Source: a virus
Strand: one strand, 5' to 3'
DNA length: 25,611 nucleotides
Virus record (IMG/VR): IMGVR_UViG_3300036804_000034
Location: 1-25,611 of that record
Shown: one piece after another, positions 1,665 through 18,871 of the stretch
Position numbering within the stretch: position 1 is the stretch's first letter
Layout of the letters: every line of letters begins with the position of its first letter
The notes under the pieces: generated by a model
What the model saw: the letters and a program-made list of their open reading frames with translations, nothing else
Database searches by the model: none
Told to the model about the DNA's origin: nothing
Made by a program: the position numbers and the translations under genes

Positions 1665-1892
1665 TCATGGGCCTGAAGGAGGAGGTCGCTCAACCTCGGC
1701 CCCTGGACGATAGGGCGCGAATGTCCTGATGCGCTCGATTGGCACCTTGCCGCGATCGCGCAGCTCGACATAGCGCTTGCTCGGGGGCCGGTCCAGGAAG
1801 CGGTCCACAAAGCGCTCGCCAGTATCCAGCACAATCAGCACCCGCTTGTTACGATAGGTGGCCGTGTGCAGCCCGTTCGGTCTCTTCTTCAT
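1665..1892 (-). CDS. Small basic protein, possibly an SH3-like barrel
   Basis: The ATG at 1890-1892 overlaps the TGA of the adaptor gene (TGATG), which suggests coupled translation. The product is 75 residues and starts MKKRPNGLHTATYRNKR. The middle reads as short alternating strands (VLIVLDTGERFVDRFLD and then VPIERIRTFAPYRP), like small SH3-type barrels, and the C-terminus is Pro-rich. I do not recognise a family. Its position directly after the adaptor is consistent with a minor head-tail joining protein, but that is inference. Confidence 0.65.
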   Translation of the reverse strand: MKKRPNGLHTATYRNKRVLIVLDTGERFVDRFLDRPPSKRYVELRDRGKVPIERIRTFAPYRPGAEVERPPPSGP

Positions 1893-2836
1893 CACCACAC
1901 ATCGGGCGGAATGCCCTGGGTTGAATGCTGCTGCAACTGCTGACTCATCAGAATCGCCATCTCACGCATGACTAAGGCGCGAAACCGCTGCGCGCTCTCC
2001 ATGTCGCCGAGTACCGCTTCGCACAACCGCGCCGCCGCCTCGCTGCGAATCAGTGCCTCGGCCTGCGTGGTCCAGAAGTTCACATCGGTTGCCGAGCGCG
2101 GCAGCGCCGGAGCGGTCGTGTAGGAAAGCGTGACCGGGTAGAAACCGACTGGATAGGGCCAGAAGTATATCTGCTGCTGGAACCAAGCCCACCAGGTTGG
2201 ATAGGTGGTCGGCGGCGAGTACCTAATCACGTCATACTCGCGCAGTTGCAGATAGGTAATCTTGGTCATCCCGATGCGCATATTGCCCGCCCACGTAACC
2301 TCCACCAGGCGTGGTGCTACGTAATCGATGGGCGGCACATACTGATTCTGGAAGGGCACCGTTGACAGTTGCGTCCAGATGCCCGGTCGCCACGACGCGA
2401 CCGTAGCCCACAGGCAGCCACCGTCCACCGTGGTGCCAACCGAGGTCGGGTTGAATACCGGGGGCGAAGCCTGCACCGCTGGTGCATAGAGTATTGGCGT
2501 GAAGACCGGGCGCGTCGCTCCTGCGGTCCCAGCAATCAGATTGACGAACACGTACTGATTGCTATCGCTGGCAACGTCGGTGATGGTCGCGCCCTGCGGA
2601 TAAATCAGGTTTGGCGTCCCCGCTGCGGGGGGCGCGGCATTGCCCCAATAGGGCACGGCGCTATTGTCGGATTCGGAAAAGAAGAAGGGCTTACGCTGGA
2701 AATACCTGATCGCATCCTGGATATAGGTCGGCGCGAACTGCGACAAGTCGGGGCGGTTCAGATCGTCCAGGAGCCGCGTCTGCATCGTCCCGAAGTTGCG
2801 TTGGTCGGCCTGTATCAGCGACCACTCTTGCGCCAT
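1892..2836 (-). CDS. Head-tail adaptor protein, SU10/P22 gp4-like, with an inserted domain
   Basis: The product is 314 residues and would form the adaptor ring beneath the portal. The family pattern is visible. There is an N-terminal helical part with PTYIQDAIRYFQRKPFFFSE (37-56). The later strand part reads YDVIRYSPPTTYPTWWAWFQ (201-220) and QQIYFWPYPVGFYPVTLSYT. A C-terminal helix follows, starting at NFWTTQAEALIRSEAAARLC, of the kind found in P22 gp4-like adaptors. Residues about 62-150 look like an insertion containing a GATxPVF...VDGGCLW pattern, reminiscent of small beta modules in phage fibres. The start lies just after the structured RNA at 2847-2958, with GGTGAG as ribosome binding site. 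Confidence 0.8.
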   Translation of the reverse strand: MAQEWSLIQADQRNFGTMQTRLLDDLNRPDLSQFAPTYIQDAIRYFQRKPFFFSESDNSAVPYWGNAAPPAAGTPNLIYPQGATITDVASDSNQYVFVNLIAGTAGATRPVFTPILYAPAVQASPPVFNPTSVGTTVDGGCLWATVASWRPGIWTQLSTVPFQNQYVPPIDYVAPRLVEVTWAGNMRIGMTKITYLQLREYDVIRYSPPTTYPTWWAWFQQQIYFWPYPVGFYPVTLSYTTAPALPRSATDVNFWTTQAEALIRSEAAARLCEAVLGDMESAQRFRALVMREMAILMSQQLQQHSTQGIPPDVW

Positions 2837-3888: not shown

Positions 3889-4977
3889 CTACTGCGCATT
3901 GGCTGCGCCGGAGCCGAGCGTGTCGATGTCGATGCCCCAGGTGTCGATGCACTGAACTCCGAAATCAACCCCGTTAAATTGCGCCTTAAGAAGCCCCCAT
4001 ATGGAAGACACGCCTATTCCGAGCTGGCGTCCGAAATCTCTTAGTTCCTCAAGCCATAAAAATTTTTGCGTTTCCCCACTGGCGCGACCGAAGGCGAGCA
4101 TCGCGGCCTGCGCCCCGCAAAATAGTGCGCGCTTGGTTGAGGCCACTGCGGTTCCGGCATTAGCCACCGCATTAGTGATACGGGCGTTCTCATGCATCAG
4201 CGTACCATGGTAGGCTCCCACAGCCTGCCAGAACAGGGGGTTATCCCCGACATCACCACCAGTCATGGCCGCTTTTTGAATATCGAGCCACTGACCAGTC
4301 GAAGTATTCTTTCTCATGTCCGTCACCTGGGACGGATGCATGATCAATATATAGAGGCTCCGACCCCCAACCTTAACAGGCCGAATGCCGCTAGTCAGCG
4401 CTTTCGCTCTGAGTACCGCCGTATCGATCATGGTAATGTCGAAGGTATTGGTACTGGCCAGCGTGGCGGCGTCAGTGACGGTCGCAGGCAGAATCTGCCG
4501 GGTAGTAGCTACCGGCGCTTGCAGGCCGGTGTAGCGCGTGTCGCTCTGCGGTATATAGCCCGCGAGCTGGTTGGGCGCCGAGTGATCGACGCGAGCCGCG
4601 TACCAGTCGCCGAGGCGGTTCCGCCCCGTGCGCCGCATATCGAACAGCACCCGCTGGTTGCTTATCGGGCCGACCAGGAGCGTGGCGTGGGCCAGCTCGT
4701 GGATATAGAGCTGTTGCCCGTAAGTAGTCGGCGCCTCCTCGCTGCCGGTCAGGGTCGCGAGGTCGAGCACGCCAGGCGCCGAGAGCAGATTGCTGATGCC
4801 GTAGGTAACCGCATCGCCCGAGTGCTTCTGAAGATCATCGAGAATCTGGACCATGCCGGTGTCCTCTTTCGAGGCCATCCGTAGGAACCAGGTCTCCTGC
4901 ATGAATTGGGCGAGCATTAGCTTCGCCCATCGCTTATTGGTCAGTGGATCATTGGTTGTATATTCCCATCCGGCCAC
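3889..4977 (-). CDS. Major capsid protein, N4-gp56 family
   Basis: The product is 362 residues and would form the shell of the head. Features typical of the N4-gp56-like family (HK97 fold) include an N-terminal WAKLMLAQFMQETWFLRMAS and a segment with GDAVTYGISNLL. Then come TGSEEAPTTYGQQLYIHELA and an Arg/Asp-rich helix (NQRVLFDMRRTGRNRLGDWY). The C-terminal half contains the YILIMHPSQVTDMR segment. The start chosen is the GTG at 4975-4977 because GGAGG (4986-4990) sits 8 bases before it. The TTG at 4992 overlaps that ribosome binding site. It has its own promoter and a hairpin-bearing leader upstream. The scaffold-like gene is about 6.5 kb away. Confidence 0.85.
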   Translation of the reverse strand: MAGWEYTTNDPLTNKRWAKLMLAQFMQETWFLRMASKEDTGMVQILDDLQKHSGDAVTYGISNLLSAPGVLDLATLTGSEEAPTTYGQQLYIHELAHATLLVGPISNQRVLFDMRRTGRNRLGDWYAARVDHSAPNQLAGYIPQSDTRYTGLQAPVATTRQILPATVTDAATLASTNTFDITMIDTAVLRAKALTSGIRPVKVGGRSLYILIMHPSQVTDMRKNTSTGQWLDIQKAAMTGGDVGDNPLFWQAVGAYHGTLMHENARITNAVANAGTAVASTKRALFCGAQAAMLAFGRASGETQKFLWLEELRDFGRQLGIGVSSIWGLLKAQFNGVDFGVQCIDTWGIDIDTLGSGAANAQ

Positions 4978-5044
4978 CGGCGCATCCTCCAAAGAAGGTT
5001 TTAGCTTCCCGAGAGTTAACGCCGTCGAGGGAATATGCGGCGAG

Positions 5045-5060
5045 ACTGGCTATAGCCAGT
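5045..5060 (-). promoter_or_regulatory. Perfect 16-bp palindrome in the capsid gene leader
   Basis: ACTGGCTATAGCCAGT is fully self-complementary. As RNA it gives a 6-pair hairpin with a TATA loop. As DNA it could be an operator for a dimeric regulator. It lies about 30 bases after the expected transcription start from the promoter at 5099-5126 and about 70 bases before the MCP start. Confidence 0.5.
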
Positions 5061-5098
5061 GCGCAGTTTAACGTCCTGCGAGACGATACAAACGCGAC

Positions 5099-5126
5099 AT
5101 TAAATCCTATGCCACGTCATAGTCAA
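5099..5126 (-). promoter_or_regulatory. Sigma70-type promoter for the major capsid gene
   Basis: On the minus strand TTGACT (5126-5121) matches the -35 consensus in five of six positions. TTTAAT (5104-5099) matches the -10 consensus in five of six, and the spacer is 16 bases. It lies just after the stop of the upstream coiled-coil gene. It predicts a start near 5092 and a leader of about 115 bases before the MCP. It is the best promoter match I found in the window. Confidence 0.6.
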
Positions 5127-5132
5127 GAGGGG

Positions 5133-5399
5133 CTATTTCTTGGTTGCGCCTGACGCCGACTTCGGCGGGTCTTTGAGCCGTTCGTTTTCCGCCTTCAGCT
5201 CGGTGATCTGCTTCTGTAACCCGGCGATGGTCTGCGCCGAGGTCATGGTCACTGCGTTGCAGGCAATCTGATTCAGCTGACCGGCCACCCGCTGAACCTC
5301 GGGAGAGTCCATTGCCGGTGGTTGCTGCGCCCATGCTGCGAGAGTTGCGGTCGATACCACCACGGTCAATACCACCACCCCAATTACCAAGAACCTCAT
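5133..5399 (-). CDS. Exported coiled-coil protein (possible spanin-like)
   Basis: The product is 88 residues. The start overlaps the stop of the gene before it (ATGA) and is led by GGAGG with 6 bases of spacing. Residues 1-25 form a signal peptide or anchor (MRFLVIGVVVLTVVVSTATL, then AAWAQQ, with possible cleavage after AWA). The rest is helical and polar, with one Cys and a short coiled coil (IAGLQKQITELKAENERLKD), and ends in a Lys-rich tail. A membrane anchor plus periplasmic coiled coil, next to a two-helix membrane protein, resembles an i-spanin/holin pair. Its place between fibre and capsid genes is unusual for that. The MCP promoter starts right after it. Confidence 0.65.
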   Translation of the reverse strand: MRFLVIGVVVLTVVVSTATLAAWAQQPPAMDSPEVQRVAGQLNQIACNAVTMTSAQTIAGLQKQITELKAENERLKDPPKSASGATKK

Positions 5400-5563
5400 C
5401 CTAAGCCTCCATGGTGCGGCAGCATCCCGAGCACCGCCAACACCAACAAGACTACCCCCACGAGGCCGATTATCAAGCGTGTGGTGCCGACTCCACCCAC
5501 AGGCGGAACCGGGATGTTAAAGACTACCCACACAATGGCGAAGATCGTGAATAGGTATTCCAT
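5396..5563 (-). CDS. 55-residue two-helix membrane protein (holin-like)
   Basis: The start is the ATG at 5561-5563 with AGAGGTGA just upstream, a site formed by the end of the previous gene. The stop overlaps the next start as ATGA. The product has a first helix (MEYLFTIFAIVWVVFNI), a Pro/Gly/Thr turn (PVPPVGGVGTTR) and a second helix (LIIGLVGVVLLVLAVLGML), and ends HHGGLG. Size and hairpin topology match small class II-type holins. No family can be named. Being coupled to an exported coiled-coil gene fits a membrane or lysis function. Confidence 0.65.
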   Translation of the reverse strand: MEYLFTIFAIVWVVFNIPVPPVGGVGTTRLIIGLVGVVLLVLAVLGMLPHHGGLG

Positions 5564-5568
5564 AGAAA

Positions 5569-5847
5569 TCACCTCTTATGGCTCGGTGATGAGGTCGCCA
5601 TCGGGATGGCAGTGAAAGGAGGCGGCAGCATCAATGGCACTACCCTTGGCGTCGGCGTTGCAGTCGGTGGTGGCCACCCCGTGGGAACCCACGTCGGTGT
5701 CGGCGTTGGTGATGGACCGGGGGTCATCGTTGTCATCGGCCCTGCCGTCGCTGGAAACCACACAATAGTCGGGGTTGAAGTTGGAGTCTGCGCGAACGCC
5801 ACGGCGGCGAACAAGAACCCCAGTAGTAATAGAATTGTGCTTTTCAT
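5569..5847 (-). CDS. Exported Pro/Thr-rich protein
   Basis: The product is 92 residues. It starts directly after the stop of the large fibre gene (TAAATG) with no clear ribosome binding site, so re-initiation is likely. Residues 1-20 are a clear signal peptide (MKSTILLLLGFLFAAVAFAQ, cleavage near AFA/Q). The mature part is dominated by Pro, Thr and Ser (TPGPSPTPTPTW) and lacks a fold I can recognise. Such regions are often extended linkers or O-glycosylated in other proteins. It resembles the exported His/Pro/Thr-rich mini-protein at 16512-16685 in design. Its role is unknown. Confidence 0.65.
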   Translation of the reverse strand: MKSTILLLLGFLFAAVAFAQTPTSTPTIVWFPATAGPMTTMTPGPSPTPTPTWVPTGWPPPTATPTPRVVPLMLPPPFTAIPMATSSPSHKR

Positions 5848-8800
5848 TTAATATACGTCAGCGCAGTGATACGCGAACCACAATCCGCCACAAACAGGCC
5901 CGCCCGCATAATTGACACAACCGAACTGTATATTGTTGGCATTCTGAGCGTTGGTATAGATAACACCTGACGAGCCTGCTCCGGCGGTAGCGATGCAGGC
6001 CGGGTTCCCGTTAAAAGGCTTCGCGAAATTCAACTGGACCGGCCAAGCGCTGGCTAGAATGTACCCGAACGCGTCTCGTGATCCCGACATGAGCGAGCCA
6101 TTGGTAACACTGGCGGAGCCATAATTAGCGTTGTTGGCTAGATGGACAACATTGAGCGTCCAGTTCGACCAACTAAAAGTCTGATTCCAAGCAGAGATCG
6201 TGGTTCCTCCCGGTGCCGCTCCAGTCCAGCCAATGAATCCACCGCCGGGAGTGAGGTCCAAGATTGGTGCCCCGCCGCCAGCACCCCCGTCTGTTACCCA
6301 AGCACCACTACCGGGGGATAGAGCGGCTCCGGTTATATCGATAGTCCCAAATGTACGTCCGGTAAGATAACCGTTGCCGACATTGAATCCAGTAATCCCG
6401 CTGTTTCCACCAAATATGGCAGCGTAACCGGGAACCGATAGGCCAGCGAAATTCGTACCGTTGCTTAGAAACTGCCCGAGGCCACCACCAGCATAGTTCA
6501 AGATTGAGGTCGCATTCCCTCCGTAAATACTGACGTTATGCACGCTATTTATCCACAGACCCTGCGAGGCACTAGTCCCAAACAACGCAACGTTATGCGT
6601 GGCGGCATCGGTGAAGCCAGTGTTAGTCAATTGAAAGGCGGCGTATTCCGATGCATCGTTGCTGAGGTACATAGTTTCGTTGGCGTGGGCACCCGTTGCA
6701 TTATTGGTTAAATTGGTAGTGGCACCCCAATTGCCATTAGCCGTCATTTGCAACAGACCCGAAGCAGTACCACCAGCATTATTCGTTGCGTTGTTTTGTA
6801 GATTGAACAGACTAGTCCACGGTTTCGTACCGTCGGTGCCAGCGGGAACTACCATCATCCGCGCCGCCTCAAGATTGCCTAGCCAAAAATGAACCGGCGG
6901 TGCCGGAGTGATGGTCGTGTTAGTCGCGAACTCCATTCCACCCGCACCATTGCTGGCTAGTTGCAGACTGTCACCGGCAACGGCTGGACCGGAAGCAGTA
7001 TAACCGCTGCTCACCATCATCAACCAACCCGAATGGACGTCGTTATTAAGATAAATTGGACCCGCACCCGCGTTTGTACCGGAAGTGGTGTTCGTGATGC
7101 TCACCACAGCTCCGTGATTACCGCTTGAGGTCGCTTGAAGCAGATTGCCCGCTGCCGTGGGCGCAGCCGCTCCGATACCGAGCGCCAACATGTTGTTGTG
7201 GCCCGCAGTCGTATAGGTGCTGCCGTCAGGGAACGTCATGGTGCCGGTAAAACTAGGCGAAGCGATAGGCGCGAATATACTGGTCAACGCTGTGCCACCG
7301 CTCTTGGTTACGGTGATAGCGCCCGCACTGTTGATGGTCGCGTCACCCGACATGGTGACTCCCGCGAACGCAGTGCCCGACTGCGCAATATCGATCTGTC
7401 CTGCCGTAGGCGCAGTGCTGGACCCTCGCCCTCCATTGGCAATGCTCAAGGGTACTGATGCAGTCGCCAAGGCACTGAACGCCACCCCGCCCGTCTTGGT
7501 GACCGTCGCGACATAACTGTTCGTACCCCCGCGAGCGTAGGTAAAATCGCCGCTCACCGTCTCCGCTTCGGAGATGTTAGCAGCTGAATATCCGGCAACC
7601 TGCGGAGGCGATCCATTGGGATAAGTGGCACCACCCGAGATACCACAAGGCCCGCCTGCATCCACCAGATTGCCGCTCGCATCGAACTTCGCGCAGTCGT
7701 TGCCAATGAGTGTGCCGCTGGTCGTTCCAAAGACAATCGTACTACCCGAGCGTGCTCCGGTAGTTGGAGCGCCACCGGCACCACCGCCAAGAACCGGCGC
7801 ACTAGCACTCAGTGTCCCTGACGATTGCAGCGTCGCATTACTGCTAAAGTACAAGATGCCGCCGCTGGTTGGCCCGGTTGTCGGCAAAGCAACCGGATTC
7901 GTAGGACCGAAATGCAGGCCCGACACAGTCGCGAGGCCAGAAAGACTCACGGCTACATCTCCGCTCATTGTCTGAGGAGTGTAAGTCGTCGCAGTCTGCG
8001 CAATGAGAATCTGCCCCGCTGACGGAGCAGTACCAGAACCCAAACCGCCATTCGCTACGGATAGCGGCGTGCTCGCGGTTGCCAGCGGTCCCAGTGGAGT
8101 CCCGCCGGTCTTAGTCACCGTCAGATTTCCGTTGGTAGCGAGCACCGCGTCACCGCCCACGGTCTCGGGCGCATAGCCAGTAGCTGACTGGGCAATCAGT
8201 ATCTGTGGCGCGGTGGGCGCGGCGGAATTGCCGGTTCCGCCGCTGGCAATGGCCAATGGGTTGGCCAGCGTGAGTGTCGGCGCGCTTAATACACTGCCCG
8301 TTGGCAAAGTCAGGCCAGAAGCACTCAGCGTGGCAATGCTAGTTGGAGTGAAAGTGTTACCGACCGTCAATCCGGTGTTTTCAAAGAACGATATGCCGGT
8401 ACTTCCTTCAGTTATGATGTCTGCGGTAGTCGCACTCGCAAGCCAGTTAGTGCCGTTGTTGTACGCCCCGGCTGCCATGTTCATGTTGGGCGCAGTAGCG
8501 CCTGAACTTAGTGACCCGATGGGCGTGGTTGCCGATCCGAAAAACTGCTGCGTCGCTGGGCCGGTGCCGGTCAGCGTGAGCGTCGGCGTCTGTATCGTTC
8601 CCCCGCTGGCCACGGCCACCGTCCCGGTAAAGGTCGGCGACGCGAGAGTCGCAAACCCTGGACAGTTCAGCGTGTAGCTGCTCGTAGAGTTCCACACGAA
8701 CGAGCAGTTGCCGCGACCACCGCTCACCGTCTGCCACTCGGGAGTGTTGTTGGAGTTGACGCCGAATACCTGCCCTGAAGCAGCTGGATTGGGAACAGGC

Positions 8801-9177
8801 GTCACCAGATAAGTGCCCATGATCATGTTGCCGAAAGGCGAGGTGCTCTGGTTGGGGATGATCGCGCTGAAGGGCGCACCGCAGTTGCCGAGCTGGTCAC
8901 ATATCGTGATCGAGTTCACCAACAGCTGCGCAAAGGTATTGGGACCAATGACTCCATTCTGATCGGTATTTATCGAGATGATCTTCCGCGCAACCGTTTG
9001 GCCGCCTGCGAGGACTTGGGTCTTGATCGAATCGAAATTGATGACGCCATTCTTGAGCGGTTGACCGCTCGCGTCCTGGACGGTGCCGGTGAGGGTACAG
9101 CTCGGCACCGACTGCGCGTGCGCTACGCCGCCAGCGAAGACCAGCAGAATTGCGAAAACAAATAGTCTCTTGAGCAT
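5848..9177 (-). CDS. Large repeat-containing tail-fibre-like protein with a signal peptide
   Basis: The product is 1109 residues from the ATG at 9175-9177, which has GGGGAGG upstream. The five codons added by starting at 9192 are not supported. Residues 1-22 are a signal peptide (MLKRLFVFAILLVFAGGVAH, then AQ). Next is a transthyretin- or carboxypeptidase-regulatory-like module beginning CTLTGTVQDASGQPLKNGVI. Residues about 300-660 hold three or four divergent repeats with PLSVANGGLGSGTAP, GQILIAQ and TVTKTGG, typical of phage fibre shafts. A second repeat pair covers about 660-900. The last 100 residues look like a Cys-containing receptor-binding head. Fibre function follows from the repeats and the nozzle neighbour. 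The signal peptide is abnormal for a virion protein. Confidence 0.75.
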   Translation of the reverse strand: MLKRLFVFAILLVFAGGVAHAQSVPSCTLTGTVQDASGQPLKNGVINFDSIKTQVLAGGQTVARKIISINTDQNGVIGPNTFAQLLVNSITICDQLGNCGAPFSAIIPNQSTSPFGNMIMGTYLVTPVPNPAASGQVFGVNSNNTPEWQTVSGGRGNCSFVWNSTSSYTLNCPGFATLASPTFTGTVAVASGGTIQTPTLTLTGTGPATQQFFGSATTPIGSLSSGATAPNMNMAAGAYNNGTNWLASATTADIITEGSTGISFFENTGLTVGNTFTPTSIATLSASGLTLPTGSVLSAPTLTLANPLAIASGGTGNSAAPTAPQILIAQSATGYAPETVGGDAVLATNGNLTVTKTGGTPLGPLATASTPLSVANGGLGSGTAPSAGQILIAQTATTYTPQTMSGDVAVSLSGLATVSGLHFGPTNPVALPTTGPTSGGILYFSSNATLQSSGTLSASAPVLGGGAGGAPTTGARSGSTIVFGTTSGTLIGNDCAKFDASGNLVDAGGPCGISGGATYPNGSPPQVAGYSAANISEAETVSGDFTYARGGTNSYVATVTKTGGVAFSALATASVPLSIANGGRGSSTAPTAGQIDIAQSGTAFAGVTMSGDATINSAGAITVTKSGGTALTSIFAPIASPSFTGTMTFPDGSTYTTAGHNNMLALGIGAAAPTAAGNLLQATSSGNHGAVVSITNTTSGTNAGAGPIYLNNDVHSGWLMMVSSGYTASGPAVAGDSLQLASNGAGGMEFATNTTITPAPPVHFWLGNLEAARMMVVPAGTDGTKPWTSLFNLQNNATNNAGGTASGLLQMTANGNWGATTNLTNNATGAHANETMYLSNDASEYAAFQLTNTGFTDAATHNVALFGTSASQGLWINSVHNVSIYGGNATSILNYAGGGLGQFLSNGTNFAGLSVPGYAAIFGGNSGITGFNVGNGYLTGRTFGTIDITGAALSPGSGAWVTDGGAGGGAPILDLTPGGGFIGWTGAAPGGTTISAWNQTFSWSNWTLNVVHLANNANYGSASVTNGSLMSGSRDAFGYILASAWPVQLNFAKPFNGNPACIATAGAGSSGVIYTNAQNANNIQFGCVNYAGGPVCGGLWFAYHCADVY

Positions 9178-9237
9178 CGCTCGCCTCCCCAAGAAGGCCG
9201 AAGTCTTCTCGGGTAAGACGGCGAGTGTGGTGCGGCG

Positions 9238-9648
9238 CTAGACATACCAAACCTTTGTCACCGGGTGATAAACCGCCAGCACCAGTGCCCCAACTGGCGG
9301 CGACACTGCGCGGCTGATGTTCCCGCCAGTGCCGAGCGCGAAGCCATTCAGCGAGATGAGCGCGAGCAGGCCATTGTAACCCGCAGGCGGCACGATGGTC
9401 GTCACGGTGACGGTTCCGGTTACGATGTGCATGAAGTTGGTCGGATGGATAGTGGCTGCCGAGGCGATGTTCGGCCCGTAGTTCTGCGCGTTGTTGTTTA
9501 CCGCCTGAACCAGATTCTGGAAATACTGCTGATTGTAGTTGTTCTGCGTATCGACAATGGATTTCACGCGATCGCGAAACGAGCGGAAGTCGCGCACATC
9601 GGCGAGCGAAATGTTCGGCGGGCTATAAGACGAGACTTGGTAACTCAT
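9238..9648 (-). CDS. Small tail protein, fibre or fibre-adaptor-like
   Basis: The product is 136 residues. Its ATG overlaps the TGA of the nozzle gene (ATGA). The N-terminal half is helical (SLADVRDFRSFRDRVKSIVD, then NNYNQQYFQNLVQAVNN). The C-terminal half is beta-rich (TVTVTTIVPPAGYNGLLALI, ALVLAVYHPVTKVWYV), like the small C-terminal domains of phage tail proteins. I do not recognise the family. Position between the nozzle and the long fibre suggests a fibre attachment or tip component, which is inference. Confidence 0.7.
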   Translation of the reverse strand: MSYQVSSYSPPNISLADVRDFRSFRDRVKSIVDTQNNYNQQYFQNLVQAVNNNAQNYGPNIASAATIHPTNFMHIVTGTVTVTTIVPPAGYNGLLALISLNGFALGTGGNISRAVSPPVGALVLAVYHPVTKVWYV

Positions 9649-11027
9649 CGCACCCCACCTTGCCGATACTCGTAAGCAATTGCCTGCACTTCGGCAGGAC
9701 CGGAAGTCTGGAGCTGAATGCGATGATAGCGGTCATACTGACGAAAATTATGCCAGGCGTCCGGTCCAAGGACCGGGGTCGGTCCCTGCGAATCGGGCTG
9801 ACCCAGGACATTGGTGTGAAAGGGAATCAGGCTCTCGCCGGTCGGATACAGACCCTCGCTGTAAGTCGCACGCACACGCATCAGCTGGCTCAACCGCGAG
9901 GGACTACCCTGGTAACCAGTCTTGAGCCGCATCGCCCCCGGCGGGCCGGTCCACGTCCACAGCGAGTGATCACTCGCGAGGTAGTAGCCGCTCATGTTCC
10001 CCGGCTGGGTATTGCCAATCACCGTGTTCATCGCCAGGTAGCCGGTCGCCCATTTACCAACCCGCAGATTGTAGGCAACGTAGCGGTCGGCATCGGGTGG
10101 ATTGGGTGCCTGCGTTGAACACCAGTGCCAGTAGATGGTGGCGTTCGGGTCGTCATACCAGCTGGTGGTCAGGTGGATGTTGTTCATATCGACGTTATCG
10201 AAGAAGTAACGCCGAACATTGTTAGGAATGCGGGTCGGCGTATAGCCGGTGGTCACATAGAAGTCATCGATGCCGAGAAACGCGATCGAATCCGGCAGCA
10301 CACACACGCACTCTTGTCCCCAGGTGCCGGTCTCCGCAGAGATGAGCTGAAAATTCCACACGAAGGGCGCGCCGGTAAAGGTGCCAAGCCAGATGGCGTT
10401 CTTCTTGAAGACTAGCTGCGCGCGGAAAATCGGTGCCGCCGCGACAATAGGGCCGGGATAGTCATAGAGCGTGCCGGTTGCAGCCAGGGTCTGCACGTCA
10501 GGCGTCCAAGTAGTGTCATTGCCGAAGGCGCTGTTGTACCAGTTCGCACCCTGGTACATGACCACCGTGCCCGCCACCGAGAGCACCACGCTCGCGTTGG
10601 TGGGGGGCGCCCCGGTCACGCCGGGCAGGATGGCAAAGGTGCCGGTGGGGCCGCTCGCCATTATCGGCGAGAGGCCGGGGGCTACCGCGATGACATCATC
10701 ATTGAACTGGGTGAAGCGAACCCGACCCGTCGCTCCATACCCGATACCGGCTTGTTGCCACGCACCGCTTACCAGCCGAAAGATGTGGCCAACGCCTGCG
10801 ACCAGCACCGAGGTTGAACCATCGCCGTAGTAGGCGAGGTAGGAACCATAGACCGGCTCAGGCAGCGCAGGCGCAACCTGTACCGCCGTGTTCCGCGCCT
10901 TGTACCCTTTGGTGGTAGGGATCGCGTTATTGCAATCGAGCAGGATGCCGGGCGTATCGCTGGGCAGATCAGGCGCGAAGTCCTGAAACGGGATGCTCTG
11001 ACCACTGCCCTGTTGGTAATTGCCCAT
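9645..11027 (-). CDS. Tail nozzle / DNA-stabilisation protein, P22 gp10-like
   Basis: The product is 460 residues. It is rich in short strands separated by Gly/Asp/Trp turns, as expected for a beta-propeller. The segment NFQLISAETGTWGQECVCVL followed by DSIAFLGIDDFYVTTG and later TRIPNNVRRYFFDN is characteristic, as I recognise it, of the P22 gp10-like nozzle or packaged-DNA-stabilisation family. In that family the protein closes the tail tube below the adaptor. The C-terminus RYHRIQLQTSGPAEVQAIAY fits the same fold. The ribosome binding site is weak. It is followed by fibre-like genes, as in other short-tailed phages. Confidence 0.75.
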   Translation of the reverse strand: MGNYQQGSGQSIPFQDFAPDLPSDTPGILLDCNNAIPTTKGYKARNTAVQVAPALPEPVYGSYLAYYGDGSTSVLVAGVGHIFRLVSGAWQQAGIGYGATGRVRFTQFNDDVIAVAPGLSPIMASGPTGTFAILPGVTGAPPTNASVVLSVAGTVVMYQGANWYNSAFGNDTTWTPDVQTLAATGTLYDYPGPIVAAAPIFRAQLVFKKNAIWLGTFTGAPFVWNFQLISAETGTWGQECVCVLPDSIAFLGIDDFYVTTGYTPTRIPNNVRRYFFDNVDMNNIHLTTSWYDDPNATIYWHWCSTQAPNPPDADRYVAYNLRVGKWATGYLAMNTVIGNTQPGNMSGYYLASDHSLWTWTGPPGAMRLKTGYQGSPSRLSQLMRVRATYSEGLYPTGESLIPFHTNVLGQPDSQGPTPVLGPDAWHNFRQYDRYHRIQLQTSGPAEVQAIAYEYRQGGVR

Positions 11028-11444: not shown

Positions 11445-12488
11445 CTATTGGCGAACTCCCTCCAGGCGCTCCAGCGCCTTGTTGATCTGGATGGCGCGCT
11501 GCGGGTCTTGGAGCGCTTCCACGAAATCGTTCTCGTCCATGTCGGCTATCTGTTGCGCCGAAAGTGCCGACCAATTGGCGTTGCTGTCATCGAGGATGGG
11601 CGCGCGAGACAGCCCCTGCGCGGCCTGGCCCTTGCGAAGCTGCGCGAGTTTTTCTTGCGAAGAGGGCGGCGCAGCGGCAGCTGCCGCCTCGGGGGTAGGC
11701 GCCGCCCCCTGATAACCCATGGTTCTGGCGGCGTCGTAGTACGCCTGCGCGGCGCTCTTGCCGTTCTGGCGCGCCGCATAGGCAACCGCGAGGGCCTCGT
11801 TATTGACGATCACCTCGGCCTGGTCGGGCGGCAGGCCGACCGACTGCCAGAAGGTGACTCGCGCCTGACGCGCGTGCTGCGCGGCCTGTTCGTAGTCGGG
11901 CTGCCGCTGCCGATAGCTATTGATGTCGTTGGTTAGCCACAGATTGAAGTCGCTTAGGTTGGCGGATTGCTGAACTTGCTGGCTGGTCTGCCCCAGGTTC
12001 TGCCGCACCTCTTGGAGGGATTGGGTGAGCTGGTCGATCTTGCGATCGCGCTCCCACAGCTGCGCCCCGTAAGGGTCGAGCGTCTCATCGGGCTTGGTAG
12101 GAATCTTGGCCTTCTCGGCATCGGTCTGTTGCTGGCGCTCAAAGTTCGCTTGCGCTTCCTGCGCCAGGCGCGAGCGCTCTTCCAGGCGCGCCCACTTCTC
12201 GCGCATCTCGGACAGCTCGCGATCCTTGCGCTTGCTCTCTTCGTTGACCTCCCGAAAGCGTTCGTAGGGAATCGCCTGCTCGGGGGTTTTCTTGGTCTTG
12301 GGCGGCTGCTGGCCGGGCTGCCCGGCGGGTAAGACCTGGGGTGGCAGCGCTTCTTCGGCGGGAGGCGCCTGCGGTGGTGACGGGGCCGCAGGCTCCGCCT
12401 CACTGGCTATAGCTTGCTGGTCCTCTTGGGTGAGGACTTCATCCTCATTGAGTAACGCCTGATTAGTCGGTGCCGCCGCTGTCGGCAT
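11445..12488 (-). CDS. Candidate capsid scaffolding protein
   Basis: The product is 347 residues, with GGAGGGG before the ATG. The N-terminal 70 residues are disordered-looking and Pro/Glu/Gln-rich. A segment IPYERFREVNEESKRKDREL opens a long charged coiled coil (to about residue 130), the common opening of phage scaffolds. Further Gln-rich helices follow, and an Ala-rich helical C-terminus ends DPQRAIQINKALERLEGVRQ. Scaffolds guide head assembly and usually sit next to the MCP. Here the MCP lies about 6.5 kb downstream, past the tail genes. A hairpin (12499-12515) precedes the ribosome binding site. Confidence 0.7.
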   Translation of the reverse strand: MPTAAAPTNQALLNEDEVLTQEDQQAIASEAEPAAPSPPQAPPAEEALPPQVLPAGQPGQQPPKTKKTPEQAIPYERFREVNEESKRKDRELSEMREKWARLEERSRLAQEAQANFERQQQTDAEKAKIPTKPDETLDPYGAQLWERDRKIDQLTQSLQEVRQNLGQTSQQVQQSANLSDFNLWLTNDINSYRQRQPDYEQAAQHARQARVTFWQSVGLPPDQAEVIVNNEALAVAYAARQNGKSAAQAYYDAARTMGYQGAAPTPEAAAAAAPPSSQEKLAQLRKGQAAQGLSRAPILDDSNANWSALSAQQIADMDENDFVEALQDPQRAIQINKALERLEGVRQ

Positions 12489-12565: not shown

Positions 12566-13852
12566 TTAGGCGGCTTCCTTCATACCACCCCAATCAAGGC
12601 GCAAACGCTCCCCTGCCCTTATACAGTCGGCAGCTTTGGTAAAGGCGCTCGGGTCATAATTCACCTGGTAGCCAGTAACCGACTCCGCCGCTTCCAGGGC
12701 ATCCCCGACCGCCGCCTCCAGCGAGTCGCCATAGCCAATAGCGGCGCCGAACTCGGTCACATCGCTTGGGGACACCGCGTAGTCATGCCCGTCGATGCGG
12801 CAGTGATGATGAATCCGCACCCGATCGGGGCGACCGATTTCCAGGCCGAGGTAGTACACCGGCTTGGGATATTGCTCCTTGGCCCACTTGGTGGTCATGA
12901 CTACCTGCGCGGCGTAGGCCCCCCGATACTTGGGCTTGGGCATCAGCCCGTTGGCCCCGTCCCACATCACCTCGCCGATATTCTCAATGAGCTGAGACTG
13001 AACTTCCGAAGGCGGCGAGGGAAAGCGCGCGGTAAAGTCGATGAGATACGCCTCTTCGCGGGTGAAGCGCACCTCGTTGCTCATGGGACCGCGATAGCTG
13101 ATGCCCTCAAGCAGCGGCGCTATCTTGTTATGCACCTGGAGGAGCCGATCGGGCACCGCGCCCACCAGGCCGACATAGGCTTGGTCCTTTACTTCATAGC
13201 CCCACAGCGAGGGCGTCATGAGCTTACCGTCCACCACCATGGCATCGATGCCGACCTCGCACGCCTCGCCATCTTCATCCTGGATAGGCTGCTCCACGAT
13301 GAACTCGCAGATGTCCTGGAACGCGCCGAGCTTGGCGGCCAGCTCATCGAGCCACGATTGAGTGGCGAAGTAGGATTGGTGGTGGAAGGTTTCCATATCG
13401 CCGCGAAAGTTGGAGAGCTTGATAAAACATTCGTCGGCGTCACGCAGAAACTCGCGAAGCTTGTCGAGTCCCTTCACCAGCATTGCCACCGAGGTGTCGA
13501 GTCCGCATTGCTCCACGATGGTGCGTAGAAACCAGCGATCGCGCTCCAGCCGCGCGCCCTTGCCGGAACCCCACACCTTCATCCCCTGGTCGCGGAGCTG
13601 CTGCTGAAGTCCGACCATGCCCACGTCGGGGAACACCACCAAGTCGGCGCGGTTTAGAGCCTCAAAGAAGTCCTCAACGCGCTCGACCCCCTCAAGTCCG
13701 TAGCCTGGCATGGCGTCGCGCGAGAGCGAAAAAGCGCGCTCCCACTGCGAGAAGTACAGAACATTGGCGAACTCGCCGACTACTGCATCCGCCAGATGCG
13801 TGTAAAAGCCCGAGAGGTCGTAGAAGAGAACAGTCTTGCGCGAGGTGTCCAC
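12566..13852 (-). CDS. PurD-like ATP-grasp ligase
   Basis: The product is 428 residues from the GTG at 13850-13852, just after the upstream stop. The longer frame to 14101 only overlaps the neighbour. It reads as an ATP-grasp enzyme of the PurD/carboxylate-amine ligase type. There is a Rossmann-like N-domain (KTVLFYDLSG, 6-15; ADLVVFPDVG, 69-78), then VWGSGKGARLERDR (93-106). The lysine-bearing strand is FIKLSNFRGDMETF (143-156). The adenine/E-loop strand is EFIVEQPI (183-190), followed by EVGID (199-203). The closing strand is LIDFTARFPSPPSE (270-283). PurD has E-x-N-x-R there, whereas this protein has D-F-T-A-R, so metal binding may differ. It would join a carboxylate to an amine using ATP. 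The substrate is unknown. Confidence 0.75.
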   Translation of the reverse strand: MDTSRKTVLFYDLSGFYTHLADAVVGEFANVLYFSQWERAFSLSRDAMPGYGLEGVERVEDFFEALNRADLVVFPDVGMVGLQQQLRDQGMKVWGSGKGARLERDRWFLRTIVEQCGLDTSVAMLVKGLDKLREFLRDADECFIKLSNFRGDMETFHHQSYFATQSWLDELAAKLGAFQDICEFIVEQPIQDEDGEACEVGIDAMVVDGKLMTPSLWGYEVKDQAYVGLVGAVPDRLLQVHNKIAPLLEGISYRGPMSNEVRFTREEAYLIDFTARFPSPPSEVQSQLIENIGEVMWDGANGLMPKPKYRGAYAAQVVMTTKWAKEQYPKPVYYLGLEIGRPDRVRIHHHCRIDGHDYAVSPSDVTEFGAAIGYGDSLEAAVGDALEAAESVTGYQVNYDPSAFTKAADCIRAGERLRLDWGGMKEAA

Positions 13853-13854
13853 TT

Positions 13855-14592
13855 TCAGAGGACGACGCCGACCGCGAACACGTTGCCCACTTCGATTGCC
13901 CCCGAGCCGTCGTTCTTGAAGTTCACAGCGACCGCCGGGTAAAGCAGCGTCTTTGGATCGGGTGTCACTTCCCAATTGGGCCAATCGGGAAAGTTTGCCG
14001 CGCCGCCGTCGAGGTTGTTGTCCACCGTATCCACCCGAAACATCGTCACGGTGCGCGCATCGCCGGGACCGAGTGTTTCGGAAGCGATCTGAGATTCCCA
14101 CACGCCGAGGTCATGCGCGTACCCGAGATATGGAAAAATTGGTCTGGACGGGCCGTTCACGTTGACTACGCCCAACCCCACCGCGAAGCTGGCTTTGGTG
14201 TTGCCGGGGTTGCGCACCAATATCTTCACCATGCTCAGATATTGAACCCGATTGACGCCCGAGGTCGGCGGTTGGATACGAATCGGTTCGTTGCCCTTGG
14301 CTTGTGATCCCGAGGGACCATAGCCGCCACCTTTCTGACCGTTCGGGACGCGATACCCTGGGGGCCAAGGACCGGGAGCGATGCACAGCACGTCATTAAA
14401 GTTGGGCGGGATGGTGCGAAAGTAATCCTGCGGGTCGAGGTATTCAGTTGCATAGCCCGCGTGTCCACTGATCGCCGGGAAAGACTGGCTAGCGCCTGAG
14501 TGACCTGAGAGCACATCGCCGCTACCACCACTTCCGCCGTTATCTGGAATCGTCGCGGTGCCGGTAACTGTGCCGGTGATTGGTACTTCCAT
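13855..14592 (-). CDS. Beta-rich protein, unknown, paired with the ATP-grasp gene
   Basis: The product is 245 residues. The second of two tandem ATGs (14592) is chosen because GAGGTGG directly abuts the first. The first 100 residues are Gly/Ser/Pro-rich and include GGSGGSGDVLSG. The C-terminal 130 residues look like a beta-sandwich (YLSMVKILVRNPGNTKASFA, VGLGVVNVNG, LLYPAVAVNFKNDGSG, AIEVGNVFAVGVVL). No family is recognised. The start overlaps the upstream stop, and the ATP-grasp start follows its own stop by 2 bases, so the two are coupled. It could be a virion surface protein and a possible substrate or partner of the ligase. That is speculation. Confidence 0.65.
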   Translation of the reverse strand: MEVPITGTVTGTATIPDNGGSGGSGDVLSGHSGASQSFPAISGHAGYATEYLDPQDYFRTIPPNFNDVLCIAPGPWPPGYRVPNGQKGGGYGPSGSQAKGNEPIRIQPPTSGVNRVQYLSMVKILVRNPGNTKASFAVGLGVVNVNGPSRPIFPYLGYAHDLGVWESQIASETLGPGDARTVTMFRVDTVDNNLDGGAANFPDWPNWEVTPDPKTLLYPAVAVNFKNDGSGAIEVGNVFAVGVVL

Positions 14593-14939
14593 CATCCACC
14601 TCGGGGCTTTTTCTGGCGGCCCGTTGAAGCCGCTTCTAGTGGTTGAACCTCAACTGGCGGCGGCTCCTCCACCGGGGGCGGCTCCTCGATTGGAGGTGGC
14701 TCCTCGGGTGGAGGCGTCTCCTCCACTATCGGTGGCGCATCCGCCGTGCTCGTCCAAATCGTATATCCGCAGTGCTCACAACTCACATGAAGATGTTCAG
14801 TGGGCGGACATCCCAAGCACAGCGAATTACGCCGAATCTCCGCTGTCCGTACGAACTGGTACACACTAAGCGTACCTGCTCCGCACTTCGGACAGGTAGT
14901 ATTGGGCTGGCTCTGGCCCGAGACCTCCACAGGGTTCAT
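14592..14939 (-). CDS. Zinc-ribbon protein with a Pro/Glu repeat tail
   Basis: The product is 115 residues, with AGGAGAGG before the ATG, which overlaps the upstream stop (ATGA). Residues 14-60 carry paired cysteines: Cys16/Cys19, Cys41/Cys44 and Cys54/Cys57, with nearby His49 and His51. This fits one or two zinc ribbons. Residues about 70-100 are a repeat of PPPxEE units, followed by a basic end (GRQKKPRGG). The repeat tail could be a rigid spacer or a protein-docking arm. It has no recognised family. It is one of three Cys-pair proteins between portal and ATP-grasp genes. Confidence 0.65.
   Translation of the reverse strand: MNPVEVSGQSQPNTTCPKCGAGTLSVYQFVRTAEIRRNSLCLGCPPTEHLHVSCEHCGYTIWTSTADAPPIVEETPPPEEPPPIEEPPPVEEPPPVEVQPLEAASTGRQKKPRGG
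14640..14735 (-). repeat. Tandem PPPxEE-coding repeats
   Basis: About four or five imperfect 18-base units within the zinc-ribbon gene encode PPPEE, PPPIEE, PPPVEE and PPPVE. Length variation in such a tract can arise by slippage. Confidence 0.6.
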
Positions 14940-16511: not shown

Positions 16512-16685
16512 TTAAATGTTGCCTGGCGTTGAGGTTGGCTTGGGTGTTTTGTGCCGGTGATGATGGTGATGATGCGTGCTACTCGACGGCGTGGGTTGCG
16601 GTGTTGCTTGGGTTCCCGTGTTGGTTTGCGCAAGCGCCACGCCGCCGAATAGCAATATCACTACGATAGTCAGTGCTTTAATCAT
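16512..16685 (-). CDS. Exported His/Pro/Thr-rich mini-protein
   Basis: This 57-residue ORF starts at the ATG that overlaps the portal stop (ATGA), with AAGGG a few bases before. Residues 1-20 are a clean signal peptide (MIKALTIVVILLFGGVALAQ, cleavage near ALA/Q). The mature peptide is TNTGTQATPQPTPSSST, then a natural run of six His followed by RHK, then a Lys/Pro/Thr end. The His run could bind Zn, Ni or Cu in the periplasm or on the surface. The design is like the exported Pro/Thr-rich protein at 5569-5847. It has no recognised family. Confidence 0.65.
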   Translation of the reverse strand: MIKALTIVVILLFGGVALAQTNTGTQATPQPTPSSSTHHHHHHRHKTPKPTSTPGNI

Positions 16686-18871
16686 TGCTGCCCTTGTGGT
16701 GGTGGTCCTTGGGGAGGAAATCCTTGTTGCGGTCCCTGGGGTGATCCCTGTTGCGGCATCTGCGGAAATGGCATCTGGTCCTGCGGCTGACTGGTATTAC
16801 CAAGCAGCATACGGATCATTTGCATGGGATCAACCGGCGGATTGTGACGAGCATTCTCGTCCTGCTGGTGCGAGCGGGCCTGGTTGAACGAATCCATCGC
16901 CAGCTCGGCGATCTTGAACTTCTGCTCCTGGTCGATCGCGCGGGCCTGCGCCAAGGCGCGCTGCCCTTCCGCCGACATCTTCTGGATCTTGGCCTGCTGC
17001 TCCTGCGGGTCAACTTGCTTGCCACGGCCTTTCTGCGGCGGATTCGGCCCCTGCTGTTGCCCCATCTGCTGGAGCTTGGCAACCAGCTGCGCCGGAAGCG
17101 GCGAGAACTTGAGCGCTTCAAGCAGGAAGCTGCCAAACCCGAACCGCAGCAAACTCGGGATAATCGGCTGGAGGTCGTTCCACACCTGTGCCTTCAGGTT
17201 CGGGTTGTGCTTAACCGACTCATCCAGCACCAGGTCGTAGTCGAGCGGCAGGCCCTTCTTGAACAGCGGGATCGCCTGAGCATTGGCTTCGCCGCCGACT
17301 CTGATGAGCTGGCCCTGCGTCCAGAACTCGCGGATGAACTCCAACATGACGCGCGCTTCGTTACGGGTGTGACGCGCGACCGCATCGAAGAACCAGCCGA
17401 TGATCGCCATCCCGCCCTGGACTCGCGACTGCGCAGTCGGTGAGGGGGTCTGGCCCTGCGCCATGCCGATGATTTCGTCGTTGATGCCCGAGGTGTAGGC
17501 AATCGCCTTGTAGGACTCGGTGAAGAACAATTGCAGATCGGTGGAAACCGTCTGCGTCTGGCGCTGGACGATCTTCTGCGCGCCGCCCGCGTTAAGCTCG
17601 ATGAAGGCATCGGGCCTGCTCCACTGCTCCTTGGCATTGATCGGGTCCACGAACGCATCGGACTCATACATGACCCCGCCCTTGGCATTGGTCAGCATGA
17701 AGGTCAGCGATGAGGACATGGATTTGTTCATAGTGCGCTGCGGGTCCATCATCGGTCTGACAAACCCGTACCAGTGCTTGGCCGAGGAGTTCCAAATGCC
17801 AGTCATGCAGAGCAGCGAGAAAAAGCTGCCGGGGAGCTGGATGGGTTCCTCCAGGACCACCCCACGTGCCACAAACGCCTGCTTGTAGACCGGGCGGAGC
17901 TGGCGCACCGCCGGGGGCGCGGGCTTGCCGATGAGCCGCATCTTCAAGACCAGGCGCTTCCACGAGTCCTCATCGAGATTAGTCAGTTCCTGCGGATTGG
18001 TCGGGTCGAGGAAGCGATAGACCGGCACCATGTCACGCCACTGGTACTGGATAACCGGAATCGATTTCAGATTCTGCGTAGCCTGGCCGACTTGTGGATT
18101 AGCCTGTTCGTTCTGGCGGCTATAGTAAGGCGTCACCAGTTCGTAGCGGCCCACCCGGCGCTCTTCCCAATCATCCGGCGCGGCAGCATCGACCTTGGCC
18201 AGAATCTCCTCACCCCACAGCTTCTTAAAGGTGCGCCGTCCGATGGGACGCTGCCGGGCGCGCCACTCCGAATCCTCCAGGCACTCTTTGATGCAGTTGT
18301 GGTCCCACCACATCTCGCGCCAGGGGAGACATTCCAGGATCACCCGCCCATCGATGTCATGTTCGTAATCGGTGCGGACCTCCACCCAGCCCATCCCACC
18401 AATCGCCATATCGAGCGCGGCGCGCGAGCGTTCATCGTCGCCATTGCATAGTTCGATGGCGGCCACGCGGGATTCAGTGGCCAAGTCGCCGGTCATATCA
18501 TTTTGCAGCTTGGAGTCGAGCGCGCGGGTAACAACGCGCACATCCATGCGGTTGAGCCGCTCCAGGCCGGAGATGGCGTCGAGAGTCGGCTTGATGCGAT
18601 TGAACACCACCGCCGGGCGCTTAAGCTGCTCCATTTTCAGGCGATCGAGTTCTTCCCACTGGTCGCCGTTGTAGAACTTGAACGCCACTTCCGCCTCTTC
18701 GCGGTAAGCGTTCACCATTCCGGCGGCGTCGCTTATGTCGCGGTGAATCTTGAGCGCCAGCTCCTCCATCTCGTCGGACTGGTCTACGAACAGCGTGCGC
18801 TCGTCCGTATCCCGATCCGACTGCTGGCCGATCAGATTTAAGTTGAAGCCCGCTGTAGGTCCGATCGCCAT
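16682..18871 (-). CDS. Portal protein, P22 gp1-like
   Basis: The product is 729 residues, the usual size for P22-type portals, which form the dodecameric DNA gate at one head vertex. Recognisable segments are AFKFYNGDQWEELDRLKMEQ (61-82 region), RPAVVFNRIKPTLDAISGLE, and NRMDVRVVTR. Then come GGMGWVEVRTDYEHDIDGRV, ECLPWREMWWDHN and SGINDEIIGMAQGQTPSPTA. The last 130 residues are helical, then Gln/Pro-rich and likely disordered (GSPQGPQQGFPPQGPPPQ). It starts directly after the stop of the 1194-residue gene (TAAATG) with little ribosome binding site, so it is probably coupled. No terminase is next to it in this window. Confidence 0.85.
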   Translation of the reverse strand: MAIGPTAGFNLNLIGQQSDRDTDERTLFVDQSDEMEELALKIHRDISDAAGMVNAYREEAEVAFKFYNGDQWEELDRLKMEQLKRPAVVFNRIKPTLDAISGLERLNRMDVRVVTRALDSKLQNDMTGDLATESRVAAIELCNGDDERSRAALDMAIGGMGWVEVRTDYEHDIDGRVILECLPWREMWWDHNCIKECLEDSEWRARQRPIGRRTFKKLWGEEILAKVDAAAPDDWEERRVGRYELVTPYYSRQNEQANPQVGQATQNLKSIPVIQYQWRDMVPVYRFLDPTNPQELTNLDEDSWKRLVLKMRLIGKPAPPAVRQLRPVYKQAFVARGVVLEEPIQLPGSFFSLLCMTGIWNSSAKHWYGFVRPMMDPQRTMNKSMSSSLTFMLTNAKGGVMYESDAFVDPINAKEQWSRPDAFIELNAGGAQKIVQRQTQTVSTDLQLFFTESYKAIAYTSGINDEIIGMAQGQTPSPTAQSRVQGGMAIIGWFFDAVARHTRNEARVMLEFIREFWTQGQLIRVGGEANAQAIPLFKKGLPLDYDLVLDESVKHNPNLKAQVWNDLQPIIPSLLRFGFGSFLLEALKFSPLPAQLVAKLQQMGQQQGPNPPQKGRGKQVDPQEQQAKIQKMSAEGQRALAQARAIDQEQKFKIAELAMDSFNQARSHQQDENARHNPPVDPMQMIRMLLGNTSQPQDQMPFPQMPQQGSPQGPQQGFPPQGPPPQGQQ

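Follow-up and report, generated by a model that had tools for sequence, protein, structure and literature searches.

A phage family of PurD-type ATP-grasp ligases with altered active-site motifs, encoded mostly near virion genes

Published work lists viral purD among the auxiliary metabolic genes (PMC11360552, PMC11097641, PMC12043954): marine viruses were enriched in phosphoribosylamine-glycine ligase genes (PMC11360552), and purD was found in snow phages (PMC11097641). Other ATP-grasp enzymes of phages include a member of the LUZ24-like set, which consists of amidoligase, GATase, ATP-grasp, and COOH-NH2 ligase (PMC3890496), and the R2K enzymes, whose proposed targets are proteins of the host (PMC4431377, PMC7824862). 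No description of the present phage PurD-fold ligase family was found in a search of the non-subscription literature.

The ligase gene studied here is located in a 25,611-base IMG/VR virus record, the whole of which was analyzed and is referred to as the window. The following features were assigned in the window:

12566–13852, minus strand: PurD-fold ATP-grasp ligase (predicted), 428 aa, GTG start
13855–14595, minus strand: 246-aa protein of no family just upstream of the ligase, 2-nt gap before the GTG
16682–18871, minus strand: P22-type portal protein (PF16510, 2.4e-73; PHROG 156, 1.6e-83)
11445–12488, minus strand: scaffold-like coiled-coil protein, with relatives at 27–33% in the equivalent place
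9645–11027, minus strand: stabilization/nozzle-type structural protein
3889–4992, minus strand: major capsid protein (family profile against PDB major capsid proteins, best 4.7e-52)
1892–2836, minus strand: SU10-type adaptor protein

The GTG at 13852 (stop at 12566) was preferred over a longer, 511-aa frame, because the proteins of relatives start at the equivalent position. Four strings quoted as ATP-grasp segments in a sequence-only reading of this DNA (FIKLSNFRGDMETF, EFIVEQPI, EVGID, and LIDFTARFPSPPSE) were all found in the ligase frame, in the claimed order. The same reading had placed the ligase between portal and scaffold. The position was correct, with several small genes separating the portal from the ligase, and the portal was identified by family match; the scaffold was recognized by composition and position only, the protein at 11445–12488 having no family match. 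Coupling of the ligase to the beta-rich protein at 13855–14595 had also been proposed. The two genes are adjacent, but no counterpart of that protein was found in any related locus; the arrangement is local to the window phage, and the protein was rejected as a conserved partner.

Within 3889–11027, the nozzle-type gene, g136, and the gene for a 1114-aa protein precede the capsid gene, as in loci L002 and L007, the capsid protein of which is 94% identical to that of the window; in other relatives, these three genes are placed after the adaptor. Where the contig ends (24924–25610), an open-ended frame starts with a long proline-rich stretch, which may be a repeat-driven assembly end.

The structure of the ligase was predicted with AF2 from an alignment of 51 family sequences (pLDDT 94.6, pTM 0.92); an earlier run with 6 sequences (pLDDT 54) was set aside as poor. 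In the PDB structure search, the best matches of the model were ATP-grasp enzymes (probability 1.00). The top ones were human, Cryptococcus, Thermotoga, and Aquifex GARS/PurD (TM 0.68–0.71; the best with E 6.6e-21 and TM 0.71, matched along almost the entire protein), followed by biotin carboxylases, and the best match among known viral structures was far weaker (TM 0.47 or less, normalised by query). A PurD-type ATP-grasp fold had been claimed from the letters, with structure prediction against PurD and other ATP-grasp folds as the suggested check. The confident model and its GARS/PurD matches bore the claim out, and a structure of another fold, which would have spoken against it, was not obtained.

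At the sequence level, the window protein alone matched PurD (2yw2) at 2.7e-4 in a single-sequence PDB search, and the 51-sequence family profile matched PurD at 7e-12. Profile positions 237–407 were aligned to 2yw2 248–422, so a PurD-type C-terminal domain is present. The NCBIfam model purD TIGR00877 gave 3.7e-9 with only 35.9 bits for the window protein, missing its cut-off of 288. Pfam GARS_A had no match to the window protein and one match among the 51 members (E 0.0013). The similarity of the window protein to PurD exceeds chance, and the predicted fold, the conserved ATP lysine, and the acidic candidate metal ligands place the ligase in the ATP-grasp superfamily.

For motif comparison, genuine PurDs of E. 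coli and Chloroflexota were added to an alignment of the family. The key residues are encoded in the window as follows:

13418–13420, minus strand: K145, predicted ATP-binding lysine, kept in 50 of 51 members
13379–13405, minus strand: R150-GD-x-ETFHH-H158 loop, standing where PurD has the glycine-rich AAGKG loop
13187–13195, minus strand: E220-x-K222, invariant in the alignment
13073–13075, minus strand: E260, invariant acid and candidate first metal ligand (PurD is non-acidic at the matching position)
13025–13039, minus strand: D272-F-T-A-R276, aligned as an altered form of the PurD E-F-N-x-R metal motif

Thirteen positions were invariant in the 51 members, including R150, G151, E154, E220, K222, E260, D272, and R276. 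The N-terminal GGREH/GAREH loop of PurD is replaced by D-x-(S/G)G-x-Y/F in the family, and the NTGGMG loop, which in PurD comes after the residues matching E220-x-K222, is deleted in the subfamily of the window. The altered metal motif had been read correctly as D-F-T-A-R, and it proved to be family-wide rather than peculiar to the window copy: the family has D-x-(T/C/S/A)-x-R where PurD has E-x-N-x-R, with Asp at the Glu position in all 51 members and Thr (30), Cys (18), Ser (2), or Ala (1) at the Asn position. In most other ATP-grasp enzymes, a two-acid metal site is usual. E260 and D272, both kept in 51 of 51 members, could form such a site, and the change in the metal motif looks compensated rather than a plain loss.

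Purifying selection was detected in nine close pairs (dN/dS 0.06–0.13). At L105 (6873–8015), an intein with a LAGLIDADG domain splits the most conserved motif of the ligase, between RGD and SETWHH; inteins favour conserved functional sites. The 13 invariant positions, the dN/dS values, and the intein inside the putative catalytic loop point to an active enzyme. Separately, an HNH endonuclease ORF located just upstream of the ligase in L004 (13414–13893) opens with a near copy of the ligase N-terminus (MTDLSKKTVLFWD in comparison with MSVDLSRKTVLIWD), a pattern that resembles insertion of a homing gene at the 5' end of the ligase gene.

With the window protein alone as query, no relatives were found in IMG/VR, INPHARED (50,697 phage records), or PLSDB plasmids. 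Relatives were reached first by portal and capsid protein baits and then by profiles built from them, and these profile searches yielded about 50 distinct ligase members in IMG/VR; the alignment comprised 51. Bacterial and archaeal genomes (257 billion bases) were searched for the RGDxETFH loop by means of a DNA pattern, which detects about half of the known ligase loci, and one match was obtained. The matching contig (3.5 kb) belongs to an Anaerolineae MAG but is itself phage, with probable portal, partner, and ligase genes. The rarity of the ligase in cell genomes is real, though not absolute. No cultivated phage in INPHARED carried a ligase of the main subfamily.

In the maximum-likelihood tree, the main family came out as a single, fully supported group that contains only phage sequences, on a stem of approximately 1.8 changes per site, and the PurDs formed a separate group. 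Only 32 of the 78 inner branches were strongly supported and the root was placed on PurD by choice, so neither the branching order within the family nor the direction in which it descended was used as evidence. A second phage subfamily, closer to PurD, has a GPNTG-type loop, an E-x-T-x-R motif, and a partly kept NTGGMG loop. It was reached only via the gene of the HExxE partner described below, beside which it lies in loci L183, L185–L190, L194, L198, L203, L210, L218, L219, L229–L231, L233, L237, and L238. INPHARED contained one record of this subfamily, an uncultured spring-water phage with the ligase in the late region; the HExxE partner was absent from the parts of the record that were read.

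The neighborhoods of the relatives were compared. In the lineage of the window, portal and scaffold flank the ligase at every locus with the upstream side covered. The same placement was observed in the L098–L101 group and L100, where the portal is only 22–24% identical, and the order portal, ligase, scaffold, capsid is common to the two lineages. In a further lineage, the order is probable portal, partner, ligase, scaffold-like, capsid-like, the portal and capsid being named from size and position; profile comparisons of low diversity gave no confirmed identity for its 750-aa portal-like protein against P22 portals or for its capsid-like protein against that of the window. Other ligases are found next to a capsid protease (L125), a portal (L117, L127, L150), or terminase and neck/tail genes (L151), some come after very large ejection-type proteins, and L145 has no visible structural gene near the ligase. 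It had been asked whether homologues always sit beside portal genes. They often do, but not always: others lie near neck/tail, protease, terminase, or ejection-type genes. It is fair to say that the ligase is mostly placed within the virion module. In sister phages with capsids 40–46% identical, the ligase was found in none of the 46 loci having both portal and capsid genes, and the slot between portal and scaffold was short or occupied by other genes. The following observations were also made: proteins of nearly 2000 aa are encoded directly upstream of the ligase in L116 (63–5996) and L118 (102–5996), that of L116 having a RIIA/topoisomerase-type ATPase match, and a radical-SAM-like protein (CNMTCSWCF, by eye) is encoded upstream of the ejection-type genes and the ligase in L096 (924–1781).

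The partner, which probably binds metal, is 125 aa long and has an HE-x-x-E motif followed further on by H...E. It was found in 22 of the 51 members, mostly adjoining the ligase, and the other 29 were without it in the stretch covered; no copy is present in the window. In a scan of IMG/VR that used only the partner as query, as an independent test, the ligase was present in 63 of 79 loci, on the same strand in all of them and within 150 nt in 45; these loci (L164–L242) are not fully independent, some being near-copy contigs and some having been recovered earlier by searches for the ligase. At loci without the ligase, inspection by eye often showed the partner next to terminase or portal genes all the same. 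The partner had no convincing match in Pfam, PHROG, PDB, or INPHARED.

There is good support for the ligase being a phage-specific PurD-type amide ligase whose substrate has changed. It would descend from PurD or share an ancestor with it, and would use ATP to form an acyl-phosphate and then an amide, with a product other than glycinamide ribonucleotide. Judging from gene order only, its production is probably late, at the time when the head genes are expressed. The fuller reading, in which an active, late-made PurD-related carboxylate-amine ligase most likely acts on a virion or surface component, is in our judgment evenly balanced between right and wrong. A small carboxylate (e.g., an amino acid) would most likely be joined to an amine of that component, which may be a protein or a sugar decorating it. 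We infer a virion protein as target, and weigh it about equally with a sugar or surface component. In many phages, the ligase may work beside the small HExxE, probably metal-binding, protein. Several points speak against this reading: PurD-type enzymes normally act on small molecules and not on proteins; the portal-like protein of the second lineage is unconfirmed as a portal; the HExxE partner is missing from the window and from the stretches of 29 of 51 members; glycosyltransferases occur in only 13 of 50 records; and none of the 46 sister phages whose portal and capsid are of the same types has the gene. Because of this last absence, the ligase does not belong to the core assembly factors and may occupy a permissive slot as cargo. 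As a tentative and rather doubtful extension, the PurD-derived amide ligase and the HExxE metal-binding protein might form a new two-gene module, shared by many uncultivated phages that are unrelated to one another, for the covalent modification of a virion component while the head is being assembled.

The ligase could instead make a small metabolite or acylate an amino sugar for the host envelope or a phage glycan, the head operon providing late expression only; we consider this possible, though on the unlikely side. The substrate that PurD acylates, a glycosylamine, is a small molecule. In L013, the gene directly upstream of the ligase is glycosyltransferase-like (5850–6620; PHROG 34859, 3.9e-30), its counterpart in L003 (14595–15371) has the same position, and GT2 and methyltransferase genes are near the ligase at other loci. 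However, Pfam glycosyltransferase 2 was present in just 13 of the 50 ligase-bearing records, which may be fragments, and no glycosyltransferase was recognized as a neighbor of the window ligase. A glycosyltransferase as obligatory partner was rejected on the former count.

Modification of a host protein or metabolite for takeover or counter-defence, with the late-operon position due to chance, appears improbable. The proposed action of R2K phage ATP-grasp families on host proteins (PMC4431377, PMC7824862) and the accessory nature of the gene among sister phages are in line with it, but the same portal–scaffold slot in two distant lineages and the recurrent same-strand partner are unexpected for random cargo.

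We regard a genuine auxiliary metabolic GAR synthetase boosting purine synthesis as very improbable, even though PurDs are the closest solved structures and viral purD genes are known from marine enrichment (PMC11360552) and snow phages (PMC11097641). Among the 50 ligase-bearing records, which may be fragments, AIRS_C (PurM/PurL), SAICAR synthetase (PurC), and GATase were found in none, with working controls; amidoligase was likewise found in none, but its control was silent. The TIGR00877 cut-off was missed by far, and the phage proteins form a separate clade on their long stem. Judged by its motifs, the window enzyme is not PurD, because the GGREH, GGMG, and EFN motifs are lost and PurM/L, PurC, and GATase are missing from the 50 records. 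The sequence-only reading, which held purine synthesis unlikely, agrees with these results, and homologues confined to purine operons, the finding named as contrary to it, did not turn up. A catalytically dead ATP-grasp fold reused as a structural or chaperone-like head protein, as the location among head genes and the altered metal motif might suggest, is scarcely credible against candidate ATP and metal residues each kept in at least 50 of 51 members and an intein in the catalytic loop.

If the preferred reading, a ligase acting on a virion or surface component, is true, a new phage enzyme family tied to head genes would be added. To our knowledge, head-gene chemistry beyond proteolysis and cross-linking has rarely been described. 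Members of the second subfamily passed the Pfam PurD cut-offs in part (L188, GARS_A 48.2 bits against 27; L194, GARS_C 46.2 against 34.8), and one main-subfamily member passed that of GARS_A (29 bits), so the PurD-fold ligase may be encoded by some of the viral genes that were published as auxiliary genes of purine metabolism (PMC11360552, PMC11097641, PMC12043954).

Compared with known systems, the R2K ATP-grasp peptide ligases (PMC4431377, PMC7824862) are similar as phage ATP-grasp enzymes with a suggested protein-modifying role, but are set apart, by structure search only, as viral structures reached TM 0.47 or less against 0.71 for PurD. The LUZ24-like amidoligase set (PMC3890496) also comprises phage-encoded amide-forming enzymes including an ATP-grasp, but it sits in an early, replication-side module, and no GATase was found in the 50 ligase records. 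Biotin carboxylase and other ATP-grasp carboxylases are the second-best structural match, and E260 and D272 recall their two-acid site; the phage ligase profile, however, matched them no better than E 0.33, and no biotin partner was seen. The closest likeness is to PurD/GARS (2qk4, 2yw2, 1gso), which shares the whole predicted fold, the domain order, the ATP lysine, the E/D-x-x-x-R frame, and the C-terminal domain. PurD/GARS keeps GGREH, AAGKG, GGMG, and E-x-N-x-R, all of which are replaced in the phage ligase, whereas the phage ligase has no purine partners, an extra invariant E260, and a setting in the phage head module.
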